64,000 nt of DNA from assembly GCA_902526165.1 (NCBI GenBank), contig CABZKA010000006.1, positions 1 to 64,000 of the forward strand. The letters are read 5' to 3'. The position numbers and the translations under genes were made by a program. Shown here piece by piece: positions 47,156 through 52,059 of the stretch. The notes below the pieces were generated by a model. It saw only the letters and a list, made by a program, of their open reading frames with translations, was not told where the DNA came from and searched no databases. The DNA comes from an uncultured Bacteroidota bacterium. GTDB taxonomy: Bacteria; Bacteroidota; Bacteroidia; Flavobacteriales; Flavobacteriaceae. Every line of letters starts with the position of its first letter. Positions within the stretch are counted from its first letter, which is position 1.

Positions 47156-47593
47156 ATGAACATTTTATTAGCAAATGATCACGCAGGAACAACTTTAAAA
47201 AATGAAATAAAAAAAGTTTTAGAAAGTAAGGGTTATAACGTAAATAATTTAGGCTGTGATAGTGAAGAAAGGGTAGATTATCCAGATTTTGCACATCCGT
47301 TAGCTGAGCAAGTTTCCAATGATGATAACCTAAAAGGGATAATAATATGTGGAAGCGGGATTGGGGTTAGCATGTCTGCAAATAAACATAAAGGAGTTAG
47401 ATCGGCATTATGCTGGAACAAGGAGACAGCCAAACTATCTAGATCTCATAACAACGCAAATGTTTTATCATTACCAGCTAGATTTTTAGAAAAAAAAGAA
47501 GCCATTGAAATTGTAGAAATATTTCTCAACACTGAATTTGAAGGAGGAAGACACGAAAGAAGAGTTAATAAAATCAATAAAAAAGACTCTTAA
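47156..47593 (+). CDS. rpiB: Ribose 5-phosphate isomerase B
   Basis: ANDHAGTTLKNEIKKVLE; VDYPDFAHPLAEQV; CGSGIGVSMSANKHKGVRSAL. Confidence 0.94.
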   Translation: MNILLANDHAGTTLKNEIKKVLESKGYNVNNLGCDSEERVDYPDFAHPLAEQVSNDDNLKGIIICGSGIGVSMSANKHKGVRSALCWNKETAKLSRSHNNANVLSLPARFLEKKEAIEIVEIFLNTEFEGGRHERRVNKINKKDS

Positions 47594-47594
47594 A

Positions 47595-48038
47595 ATGCAA
47601 ACAATTATTAAAAAGTGGGGTGACCTTTCTAAAGAAGAGGTTGAAAAAATTTTTAGCTTAAGATCAGAAGTTTTTATTGTTGAACAAGAATGCCCTTACC
47701 AAGACGTTGATGGAAGAGACGCTGAAGCAGATCACCTTTTATTATATGAAAACAATATCCTTTGTGGATATACTAGAATTTTTCCTAAAAACACGTATTT
47801 TAAAGAAGCTTCCTTTGGAAGAACCGTTGTAAAAAAAACACATAGAGGTAAAGGCTATGGGCACACCCTGGTTAAAGAGTCTTTAAAATATTTAAAAAAG
47901 AAAAACGAAGATATTGTTAAAATTTCTGCGCAGTCTTATTTGACTGAATTTTATACTTTTCACGGCTTTGTTCCAAAAGGGGATGAGTATCTGGAGGATA
48001 ATATTCCACACAACGCAATGTTTTTAACTTTTTCTTAA
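47595..48038 (+). CDS. GNAT family N-acetyltransferase (ElaA-like)
   Basis: FSLRSEVFIVEQECPYQDVDGRDAEADHLLLY; ATG 47595 preferred over track start 47538. Confidence 0.82.
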   Translation: MQTIIKKWGDLSKEEVEKIFSLRSEVFIVEQECPYQDVDGRDAEADHLLLYENNILCGYTRIFPKNTYFKEASFGRTVVKKTHRGKGYGHTLVKESLKYLKKKNEDIVKISAQSYLTEFYTFHGFVPKGDEYLEDNIPHNAMFLTFS

Positions 48039-48094
48039 AGAGAAAAAAGAAAATTTTACTTAAATTGTTCTTTTAATTTTTAAATAAACAATCC

Positions 48095-48805
48095 ATGAAA
48101 AATTTTTTTAGCATTTTATTAATATTGTTCGTTTCTGTGTCTTTTTCCCAAAGGTGGGCAGCGTACGGAATTAAAGTATCACCACAAAATGAAGAAGCTG
48201 TAGTTGGAATTATTGACCAATACTTTACAAACAACCCTATTGAAGGTGTTACAGTAAGTCTTTTCTCTGTGCTTTTTACACCAGCAGACCTGAACTTTAC
48301 ACATGAAATTATATTAGATGGAGATCCAGAATCAATCTCAAAGTTTTTTACGCCAGGCTTTCAGCAACAAACAGGATGGCAACTTTTCTCGTCAAAAATT
48401 AATGCGTTCATCGAAGAAACGGTGTTTTCTGCTAACGGATGGAGAGCGTTTGAGTTTGGAGAGGTGATGCCTTTTCAAATGGTAAATACTTTTTCAGCAG
48501 ATAACGAAAATGTAAATAAATGGAGAAATATGGCAAGAACACTAAACGAGAAATATCCAAGAGATTACAGATCTTTTGCGTCAGGAGGAATCTCAGTTGG
48601 CGGACCAACTTCCAAGGCCAACAACTGGATGGTAACAGGGTGGAAAACATATGAAGATTATTTAACTAACTGGTCAAACAACAGAAAGTTTGCGGAAGAC
48701 AATCCTAAAGTTGTAAAAGACAGAGAAAAAATGAATGCAGAAATTGATTATTCGGAGTTCGAGCCCGTAGCAAAATTTATGAGATTCCTTGTTAAGCAGT
48801 GGTAA
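48095..48805 (+). CDS. Secreted protein of unknown function
   Basis: 236 aa with signal peptide MKNFFSILLILFVSVSFSQ; no family recognised. Confidence 0.65.
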   Translation: MKNFFSILLILFVSVSFSQRWAAYGIKVSPQNEEAVVGIIDQYFTNNPIEGVTVSLFSVLFTPADLNFTHEIILDGDPESISKFFTPGFQQQTGWQLFSSKINAFIEETVFSANGWRAFEFGEVMPFQMVNTFSADNENVNKWRNMARTLNEKYPRDYRSFASGGISVGGPTSKANNWMVTGWKTYEDYLTNWSNNRKFAEDNPKVVKDREKMNAEIDYSEFEPVAKFMRFLVKQW

Positions 48806-48825
48806 TATTTACCAAAACCAAAATT

Positions 48826-48850
48826 AAGCCCCACGATTAGGGGCTTTTTT
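48826..48850 (+). terminator. Intrinsic terminator (potentially bidirectional)
   Basis: AAGCCCC-ACGATTA-GGGGCTT followed by TTTT. Confidence 0.8.
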
Positions 48851-48855
48851 ATTTA

Positions 48856-49059
48856 TCACCACCTAACCTTTTTGTCAACTATCTCTACCTCAAACCTTTC
48901 GTCTTTCAAGCTTTTAGAAATCTTTGACCAGCCAGACCTAACATATATTTGAGTGGCACATTCGTGAAATATAATAGATTTGGTCATTCCAAAACCAACA
49001 GGAATACCAAGGTCTTTAAACTTTACACGAAAAGTAACCTCGCCACTAAACCTTGCCAT
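48856..49059 (-). CDS. Small hypothetical protein (67 aa)
   Basis: Non-antisense ORF with upstream overlapping ORF (49046..49174), terminator just downstream; no family recognised. Confidence 0.5.
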   Translation of the reverse strand: MARFSGEVTFRVKFKDLGIPVGFGMTKSIIFHECATQIYVRSGWSKISKSLKDERFEVEIVDKKVRW

Positions 49060-49174
49060 ATCTATTCCTCATCATTTCAACATAAAGCTCAAGAGAGCCT
49101 TTGTCTATATTAAACAACTTATGTGTACCCTTTTCTTTTTTAAAAAAGGTAATTTGAATTTTTCTTTTCTTCAT
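49046..49174 (-). CDS. Tiny hypothetical protein (42 aa, MKKRKIQITFFKKEKGTHKLFNIDKGSLELYVEMMRNRYGKV)
   Basis: Read by eye from the minus strand; overlaps start of the 67-aa ORF by 14 nt; start region is identical to that of the methyltransferase gene. Confidence 0.45.
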   Translation of the reverse strand: MKKRKIQITFFKKEKGTHKLFNIDKGSLELYVEMMRNRYGKV

Positions 49175-49251
49175 TTTATTACAATTTAAATTAAATCGCA
49201 ACAAGAGAATTTAGGATTTCTCGTTTGTTTGGGAGGAGCCCCGCATTCTAA

Positions 49252-49279
49252 ACCACCGTGCAACGAGTTGTCGGTTGGT
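49252..49279 (+). other. Imperfect hairpin in inverted-repeat spacer
   Basis: ACC-ACCG-tg-CAAC-ga-GTTG-t-CGGT-t-GGT pairs over 11 bp with extrahelical bases. Confidence 0.55.
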
Positions 49280-49315
49280 ACGCCTCTAAGCGTTCTTGAT
49301 GCACATCAAAGATAG

Positions 49316-49349
49316 CTAAACGACAACACAAGACCAAAACTAAACGACA
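49316..49349 (+). repeat. Direct repeat CTAAACGACA x2, 24-bp period, upstream of the methyltransferase
   Basis: 49316..49325 and 49340..49349 are identical. Confidence 0.65.
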
Positions 49350-49380
49350 CAATAAATCCCTATATTTAAATTGTAATAAA

Positions 49381-50613
49381 ATGAAGAAAGAGCGATTCGA
49401 TATAGAAAAAATTGATAGAAGCTTGTTTGAAACAAAAATAGTTGATCAAGAGAACCCAACAGGAGCTTCTTTCACTCACTATTTACAAAACCATCAAAAT
49501 GGCGCTTCAGATTTTTACAAAAAAGACGCATTAGTATTTGTTGAGCAAATTCTAAAAAAAAAACATCCAAGACAACAAATAACAAATAAACTAACCGAAC
49601 GAGTGTTACAGCGCTTAACATCAAACTCAAATAAACCAGTCCCTTTCCCCGCACCAAAAACCCCAAAATTTAGATTTATTGATCTTTTTGCTGGAATAGG
49701 TGGATTTAGAATCGCAATGCAAAACTTGGGTGGTAAATGTGTTTATACAAGCGAATGGGATAAAGAGGCTCAAAAAACCTACAAAGCAAACTACGGGGAG
49801 ATTCCTTTTGGGGATATAACAAAAGAAAAAGTAAAAAAATATATTCCAGAAAGCTACGATATAGTTTGCGCTGGATTTCCATGTCAAGCATTCTCTATTG
49901 CAGGACATAGAAAGGGTTTCTCTGACACAAGAGGAACATTGTTTTTTGATGTTGAACAAATAGTTGAAAGAAACAGACCTAAGGTGGTTTTTTTAGAAAA
50001 CGTAAAAAACCTATTATCTCACGATAAAGGAAAGACCTTTAAAGTTATTGTGGAAATATTAGAAAAAAAACTTGGCTATAAAGTGTTTTATAAAATTCTA
50101 AACTCAATGACACATGCAAACGTTCCACAAAATCGAGAACGCGTTTTTATTGTGGCGTTTGAACCTAAAAAAGTTAAAAACTACAAGGATTTTAAATTCC
50201 CCAAACAAGTTAAGCTAACAAAAACAATTCACGATATTCTTGAAGGTGATAAGAAAGACGATAAATACTATTATTCCAAAACCCACATGTATTATCCCGA
50301 ATTGTCAAAAACAATGAATAATAAAAATACCGTTTATCAATGGCGCAGAGTATATGTACGAGAAAATAAAAGCAATGTCTGCCCGACACTAACAGCCAAT
50401 ATGGGCACCGGGGGACACAACGTTCCTTTAATTAAAGATGATTTTGGAATTCGAAAATTAACCCCAAAGGAATGTTTCGCGTTTCAAGGCTTTGACATGA
50501 GTAAATTTATTTTTCCAAAAATTGCTGATAGTAAACTATACATGCAGGCTGGAAATTCTGTAACTGTAAGCTTAATAGAAAGAATAAGCAAAGAAATTAC
50601 TAAGGTCATTTGA
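49381..50613 (+). CDS. DNA (cytosine-5) methyltransferase of a type II RM system
   Basis: FIDLFAGIGGFRIAM (motif I), CAGFPCQAFSIAG (motif IV), VFLENVKNLLSHDKG (VI), AGNSV (X); about 95-aa N-terminal extension. Confidence 0.95.
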   Translation: MKKERFDIEKIDRSLFETKIVDQENPTGASFTHYLQNHQNGASDFYKKDALVFVEQILKKKHPRQQITNKLTERVLQRLTSNSNKPVPFPAPKTPKFRFIDLFAGIGGFRIAMQNLGGKCVYTSEWDKEAQKTYKANYGEIPFGDITKEKVKKYIPESYDIVCAGFPCQAFSIAGHRKGFSDTRGTLFFDVEQIVERNRPKVVFLENVKNLLSHDKGKTFKVIVEILEKKLGYKVFYKILNSMTHANVPQNRERVFIVAFEPKKVKNYKDFKFPKQVKLTKTIHDILEGDKKDDKYYYSKTHMYYPELSKTMNNKNTVYQWRRVYVRENKSNVCPTLTANMGTGGHNVPLIKDDFGIRKLTPKECFAFQGFDMSKFIFPKIADSKLYMQAGNSVTVSLIERISKEITKVI

Positions 50614-51737
50614 AAACATTTGCGGAGCTTGACATAGAAAACAACGGCCAATACATAAAGTTACTTTCAGCAGTAGCCAAGCTTTCAGGCTTGTTTAGCG
50701 AAAATGCAATCCCGCTTGTCTACTATCGCGCCGTGGAAAATATTTTTTGCAAAAGCTTTAAAGCACAGGACTTGTCTCGATCAGATACCGCCTTCGATGC
50801 AAGATACAAATCGATCGGTATAGGTATAAAAACCTTTACTTGCCCAAGAAACTCAAAGAAAGAAAAAGTTGCAGAATTTAATTCAGTTTCTAAAGAGCTA
50901 AATGATCTTAACGGAAAAGGCTTAGCCCTAAAGCTAGCAGAATACAGAAACGAAAGAATTGATTTAGCTAACAGGACGTACGACATTACTAGCTCACTAT
51001 ATCACATCGTAGCAAGAAGGGATAGTGAGCTAGTGCTTTTTGAAACAGATTACGATAAAATAGACTTAAACAATATAAACTCCATTGTAGAGTCTGATGC
51101 AGGTTTACAGTTTGAGGATGGAAAAAACCTATATAAATACTATTATTCTAAAAGCACACTTTTCAGAAAGTTTACCATTCCAGAAAGAGCACACCACGTA
51201 CCAATTGACATAATTGAAGACCCTTACAGCCTTTTATTAGAATTATTTGAAAATAACGACCTAAAGTCAGACAAGAGCAAGTTAAAAAAAGGAATTAATT
51301 ATGTTGTGCTTCCCTTGTACGGAATAAAAAGGCGGCAGAAATTTGTTTTCGAAAAAAGCGGACTAAATCAATGGAACGCAGGGGGAAGAAAGCGTAACTT
51401 TGGTGAAGTCTATATTCGAATTCCTAAAGAGATACACAACCAATTTCCTGGTTTTTTTCCTGAAAGAGATAAGTTATTCGATTTAGAAATACCAACAGGT
51501 GAAAAACTTAAAACTAAAATTTGTCAAGATGATTCAAAAGCGTTGATGACAAATCCAAACAAAGCTCTTTCAGATTGGTTGCTTCGAAAAATTTTTCAAT
51601 TAGAAGAAGGGGAGATTTTAACAATTGATAAAATGAATAAACTTGGTTCCGACAGTGTAACAATTGAAAAAACCGATAATAGCAATTATAAAATTGATAT
51701 TTCACCCATTGATTCCTACGAGAAATTTATAAATTAA
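50610..51737 (+). CDS. Putative type II restriction endonuclease (partner of the C5 methyltransferase)
   Basis: TTG start overlapping MTase stop (TTGA); DTAFDARYKSIGIGIKTF resembles a PD-(D/E)XK core; position next to the MTase. Confidence 0.75.
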   Translation: MKTFAELDIENNGQYIKLLSAVAKLSGLFSENAIPLVYYRAVENIFCKSFKAQDLSRSDTAFDARYKSIGIGIKTFTCPRNSKKEKVAEFNSVSKELNDLNGKGLALKLAEYRNERIDLANRTYDITSSLYHIVARRDSELVLFETDYDKIDLNNINSIVESDAGLQFEDGKNLYKYYYSKSTLFRKFTIPERAHHVPIDIIEDPYSLLLELFENNDLKSDKSKLKKGINYVVLPLYGIKRRQKFVFEKSGLNQWNAGGRKRNFGEVYIRIPKEIHNQFPGFFPERDKLFDLEIPTGEKLKTKICQDDSKALMTNPNKALSDWLLRKIFQLEEGEILTIDKMNKLGSDSVTIEKTDNSNYKIDISPIDSYEKFIN

Positions 51738-52059
51738 TAAACCCCCCCCTTGTTTCTTTAAGGGCGCTTTCAATTTCTGACGAAGTTAACACCACGCTTG
51801 AATTATAAAGGATAAAAAAAGAAACGCCAGCACTAAGCTTGGGAAACGAGCTTTTTGAAATAATAGCTCTCAACCTACGCTTAATTAGATTTCTTTTGCT
51901 TGCCAAAGGAATGTTTTTTTTTGGAACCGCCAAGCCATAACACACACTATTGTCATTGAAGTTGTAGAGCTTTATCGAAATATCTTTACCCCTCAACAAA
52001 GTGCCTTGTTCAAAAATAAGCGCGATTTTCTTTTTGTCTTTGATCGGCTTTAGTTTCAT
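51727..52059 (-). CDS. rnpA: Ribonuclease P protein component
   Basis: GLAVPKKNIPLASKRNLIKRRLRAII (RNR motif region). Confidence 0.92.
   Translation of the reverse strand: MKLKPIKDKKKIALIFEQGTLLRGKDISIKLYNFNDNSVCYGLAVPKKNIPLASKRNLIKRRLRAIISKSSFPKLSAGVSFFILYNSSVVLTSSEIESALKETRGGFINL

Follow-up and report, generated by a model that had tools for sequence, protein, structure and literature searches.

A proposed SAM-riboswitch companion of restriction-modification systems in Flavobacteriaceae, and the probable inverted copying of its start region onto a DNA methyltransferase gene

Introduction

Riboswitches of the SAM-I clan usually repress their genes at high SAM levels, and in Listeria a SAM riboswitch acts in trans on prfA. 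In Bacteroides, invertible promoters form a known class, with which the locus described here shares a short perfect inverted repeat, a promoter between the arms and a divergent operon facing it. It also resembles the Type II restriction-modification systems controlled by C proteins, in which a small gene stands beside a methyltransferase and an endonuclease. Its riboswitch belongs to the SAM-I/IV class (RF01725; Weinberg et al. 2010, PMC2864571), of which it is a full-length match above the gathering score, again in a marine bacterium. Finally, phage SAM-degrading enzymes, presented in PMC7877911 as a counter-defence through which phages exploit SAM, likewise tie the level of SAM to restriction.

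The locus lies in a window of 64,000 nucleotides (the whole stretch of DNA analysed, from an uncultured member of the Flavobacteriaceae) and departs from each of these systems. Unlike in Bacteroides invertible promoters, the arms of its repeat hold start codons and the strand of an RNA hairpin, neither an invertase nor a second orientation is seen, and the arrangement is not repeated in relatives. Unlike in C-protein-controlled systems, its two small genes, p42 and p67, include no HTH controller gene (no HTH family match in Pfam, NCBIfam, PADLOC or PHROG) and stand under a metabolite riboswitch. Elsewhere in the sampled Flavobacteriaceae, the commonest target of RF01725 is an NhaC-type transporter, whereas here it is p42–p67, beside restriction genes; no link between SAM-I/IV riboswitches and restriction systems was found in the literature searched. 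As for the SAM-degrading enzymes, they are a phage weapon, while with the p42–p67 module it would be the host that responds to a shortage of SAM.

Results

The two arms of the repeat (49166..49191 on the minus strand and 49364..49389 on the plus strand) are identical in sequence, i.e., complementary at 26/26 positions without mismatch, and 172 nt apart, just as a sequence-only reading had reported. Each of them also contains, as that reading stated, the in-frame ATG of its own gene, at 49174 (minus) for p42 and at 49381 (plus) for a C5 cytosine DNA methyltransferase. When the window was shuffled 40 times by dinucleotides, the longest perfect inverted repeat with a spacer of 20–1000 measured 13–17 bp (vs. 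26 observed); chance is thereby ruled out (maximum 17 bp), and the inverted repeat is a real, non-random feature. That the 26-mer might be a generic genome-wide leader, which would have undone the earlier interpretation, is ruled out as well, since the genome itself (1.2 Mb, 73% complete) has just two copies at up to three mismatches, while among 23 genomes of the genus the exact 21-mer core, apart from the methyltransferase copy here, is tied to the riboswitch. The methyltransferase (49381..50613, plus; PF00145) is adjacent to a Type II restriction endonuclease with an NgoFVII-type C-terminal domain (50610..51737, plus; REase_II PDLC03479, 9e-187), and the two make up a Type II restriction-modification system. 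In G471, a relative of this system, a HTH controller-like ORF was read by eye upstream.

Most of the 172-bp spacer (49192..49363) is a SAM riboswitch, invisible to the sequence-only reading and recognised through Rfam. Its minus strand carries a promoter, the aptamer and the 5' half of the expression platform. The SAM-I/IV aptamer (RF01725; 49215..49307, minus) matches the covariance model over its full length (1–99) with 55.7 bits, above the gathering score of 41.1. Bacteroidetes promoters follow the consensus TTG...TAnnTTTG, and a candidate of this type, TTG...TATCTTTG (49307..49337, minus), lies directly 5' of the aptamer and ends at its first base; a TAnnTTTG box occurs at the same place in G007, G008, G012, L046 and L053. 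On the 3' side of the aptamer, the order is TTGTTGCGATTTA-ATT-TAAATTGTAATAA-A-ATG, in which the two 13-nt strands pair ahead of the start codon as a 13-bp hairpin (49176..49204, minus) that would occlude the start of p42. The 5' strand of this hairpin belongs to the spacer, and the arm boundary falls exactly at its end, so that the p42-side arm starts at the loop and continues through the 3' strand and the ATG into the first codons. In place of the hairpin, a switching strand, TCTTGTTGC (49198..49206, minus), can pair with GCATCAAGA in the aptamer (49294-49302), an alternative that occupies the aptamer 5' strand together with the hairpin's first half.

Both pairings recur in related leaders. 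The occluding hairpin is kept, with changed sequence, in most of the other leaders (least well in L050, L052 and G005), and the GCATCAAGA/TCTTGTTGC duplex is found in 13/13 leaders (−5.1 to −10.9 kcal/mol), the sequence having changed in a compensating way in L052 and the pairing being weaker in L050 and G005. Over the 13 leaders, the two exclusive pairings recur, weakly in a few, with compensating changes in G017, L052, L053 and G005; by energy folding alone, the native leader gives a weak signal (z −1.33). The layout of the leader is that of a predicted translational off-switch. With SAM bound, P1 of the aptamer would form and leave TCTTGTTGC free to join the hairpin over the p42 start (off); without SAM, the aptamer 5' strand would pair with TCTTGTTGC and expose that start (on). 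Low SAM would then free the p42 start, a direction that fits the rule of the SAM-I clan.

The genes behind the riboswitch are p42 (42 aa; 49046..49174, minus) and p67 (67 aa; 48856..49059, minus), the latter overlapping the end of the former. Their pN/pS ratios are 0.10–0.12 for p42 (vs. G012, G021 and L046, the comparison with G008 being spoiled by an indel), i.e., purifying selection, and 0.10–0.18 for p67 (vs. relatives); on these comparisons, both are real conserved genes. p67 has no match in Pfam, NCBIfam, PADLOC, PHROG or PDB, and its structure model is of low confidence (pLDDT 59.5). A phage or plasmid origin was rejected: the p67 family and the 21-mer core are absent from a search of IMG/VR, while plasmid and phage relatives of the endonuclease are at most about 41% identical. 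In a mobile-element setting at L132 (G169), a SAM-I/IV riboswitch also precedes a p42-like ORF of 68 aa without p67 (about +339 to +545, counted from the start of the riboswitch); an integrase-like ORF and a toxin-antitoxin-like pair lie next to it, and no methyltransferase was detected there.

Searches of the genus and of the collection yielded 12 p67 loci, and their neighbourhoods separate according to p42. A DNA methyltransferase, of varying type (C5, HsdM type I, N4/N6), is adjacent in 8/8 loci with p42 and p67 vs. 0/4 loci with p67 but no p42. Beside p42 and p67, we find a C5 gene with the NgoFVII-type endonuclease (G000), a C5 gene with an MTaX1-domain protein and an N4/N6 gene (G008), type I HsdM/HsdS (G012), a fused C5 pair (G017), a C5 gene downstream (G019), two C5 genes with a large AAA ATPase (G021) and a C5 gene (L046 and L050). 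The four loci without p42 are G007, where p67 is frame-broken and no methyltransferase is nearby, and L051, L052 and L053, which lie in other genera and have neither methyltransferase nor restriction genes around p67. Exact tests give p 0.002 (Fisher, p42 vs. methyltransferase) and 0.0009, values made optimistic by the shared ancestry of the loci. The association does not extend to all restriction systems, some of which occur in the genus without the module. We propose the SAM-riboswitch–p42–p67 unit as a companion of restriction-modification systems, and as such the novel element of the locus.

Two side observations concern these loci. L046 sits on a contig labelled Opitutia, with a flavobacterial module (about 90% identical) and flavobacterial neighbours, and is probably mis-binned or recently transferred. 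As for the RF01725 loci of Flavobacteriaceae (L096-L155), they are of two kinds, before an NhaC-type transporter or before assorted small unknown genes; small-gene loci L104, L105, L112, L121 and L143 are near C5 or HsdM methyltransferases or Vsr, while no methyltransferase match was obtained near the transporter loci with the few seed proteins used as queries (L096-L155).

The interval from rnpA to GNAT-RpiB (47156-52059 in the window; L043, L044, L040 and L042) is variable and houses different restriction systems in different species. At face value, it might simply be an insertion hotspot that restriction systems and the riboswitch unit enter separately, without functional link, and the differences in restriction type and site content among genomes would agree with this. 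However, in nine further genomes that share the rnpA-RpiB site, both the module and restriction genes are missing from it, G017 and L050 pair the module with a methyltransferase at other chromosomal sites (for G019 and L046, one flank of the rnpA-RpiB site is visible), and the presence of p42 tracks that of the methyltransferases, which makes independent arrival unlikely.

The two arms probably have different histories. Behind the riboswitch, the p42-side leader is conserved at 26/26 positions in G008 and at 25/26 in G012, G019, G021 and L046, yet synonymous differences in the p42 and p67 genes reach 0.5–0.8 in several pairs. Across the genus (23 genomes), exact copies of the 21-mer core stand behind the riboswitch in five genomes and nowhere else, except for the methyltransferase copy here, and the second, methyltransferase-side arm is confined to the genome under study. 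Moreover, the leaders differ in methyltransferase relatives that share the endonuclease family (endonuclease 66–71% identical) or the N-terminal region, by which an ancestral methyltransferase leader is ruled out. Because the leader is conserved behind the riboswitch, the second arm is unique and the leaders of the methyltransferase relatives are unrelated, an ancestral p42-side arm and a derived methyltransferase-side arm fit these comparisons better. In L044 (G008), between methyltransferase and riboswitch, the C5 frame has no ATG, GTG or TTG ahead of the conserved motifs, and TGTAATAAAAT, a part of the arm, lies near the expected start of this gene.

The repeat is thus best read as an inverted copy of the riboswitch-controlled start region pasted onto the methyltransferase, a single case whose copying event we infer. 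In this lineage, the copy would have replaced the original start region of the divergent methyltransferase-endonuclease operon, probably via local template switching or gene conversion, and it would give the methyltransferase the ribosome entry site of p42 without SAM control. Its effect may be neutral, or it may improve translation of the methyltransferase or allow co-regulation in trans. Altogether, we regard as probable the explanation that combines a native p42–p67 start region behind the riboswitch, its inverted copy at the methyltransferase, and a role of the unit as a restriction-modification companion.

Shared control in trans can also be considered on its own: either the riboswitch RNA, or p42/p67, would bind the methyltransferase mRNA as their own leader and co-regulate the two operons. 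The strand with which the riboswitch would cover the p42 start can pair equally well with the methyltransferase leader (−12.2 kcal/mol), the arm boundary coincides with the end of that very strand, and the Listeria riboswitch is a precedent; nevertheless, the duplex is rich in A-U and G-U pairs, competes with the same pairing in cis and is available in one genome only, so that we find this explanation rather improbable.

The sequence-only reading had preferred an invertible switch, with a recently duplicated leader cassette as its alternative. Its geometry holds, in that inverting the spacer would leave both frames intact and exchange the upstream sequences. In such a switch, a recombinase would turn the 172-bp spacer and place either p42–p67 or the methyltransferase-endonuclease operon under the SAM riboswitch. 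Perfect inverted repeats do flank a promoter, the flipped spacer would restore the promoter, the full riboswitch and, by folding, the same occluding hairpin before the methyltransferase, and in the present orientation the plus strand leading up to this gene lacks a Bacteroidetes -7 box. Against this, the riboswitch faces p42/p67 here and at every related locus, and the second arm recurs in none of the related genomes searched. A search of the genome (73% complete) for tyrosine recombinases returned two of XerC/XerD size only, neither near the repeat, and no dedicated site-specific invertase. Inversion is therefore improbable in our view, and the duplicated cassette, given the unique second arm and the conserved p42-side leader, is the better fit. 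Still more ambitious, a mobile SAM sensor for restriction-modification, i.e., a cassette whose two new small proteins report the supply of methyl donor and which, in this lineage, could be flipped between identical start regions, handing SAM control to the methyltransferase-endonuclease operon, appears very doubtful. Lastly, single-cell genome amplification makes chimeras and, judging by isolate names (AG-...), most of the closest relatives identified by name appear to be single-cell genomes, but a chimera joins two places once, whereas here the 26-bp arm is flanked on both sides by unique intact genes and both reading frames continue through the arms, so that an amplification or assembly artefact is hardly credible.

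Discussion

Under the preferred reading, a native riboswitch-controlled unit with its start region copied onto the methyltransferase, p42–p67 would respond when SAM, the donor for the methyltransferases, runs short. Endonucleases become a danger to the host because low SAM starves the methyltransferases, and the unit might damp restriction while the host DNA is not fully methylated, a role that we advance tentatively for p42 and p67. Alternatively, the small protein made at low SAM would take a loss of SAM to signal an attack and respond to it.

Restriction-modification needs SAM to mark self, and how self-restriction is avoided when SAM falls (e.g., through starvation or phage SAM-degrading enzymes) is poorly understood. 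If our proposal is true, a SAM riboswitch on small conserved genes beside unrelated restriction systems would be a direct link from sensor to defence, and the copied start region would exemplify how one operon may adopt the control site of another.
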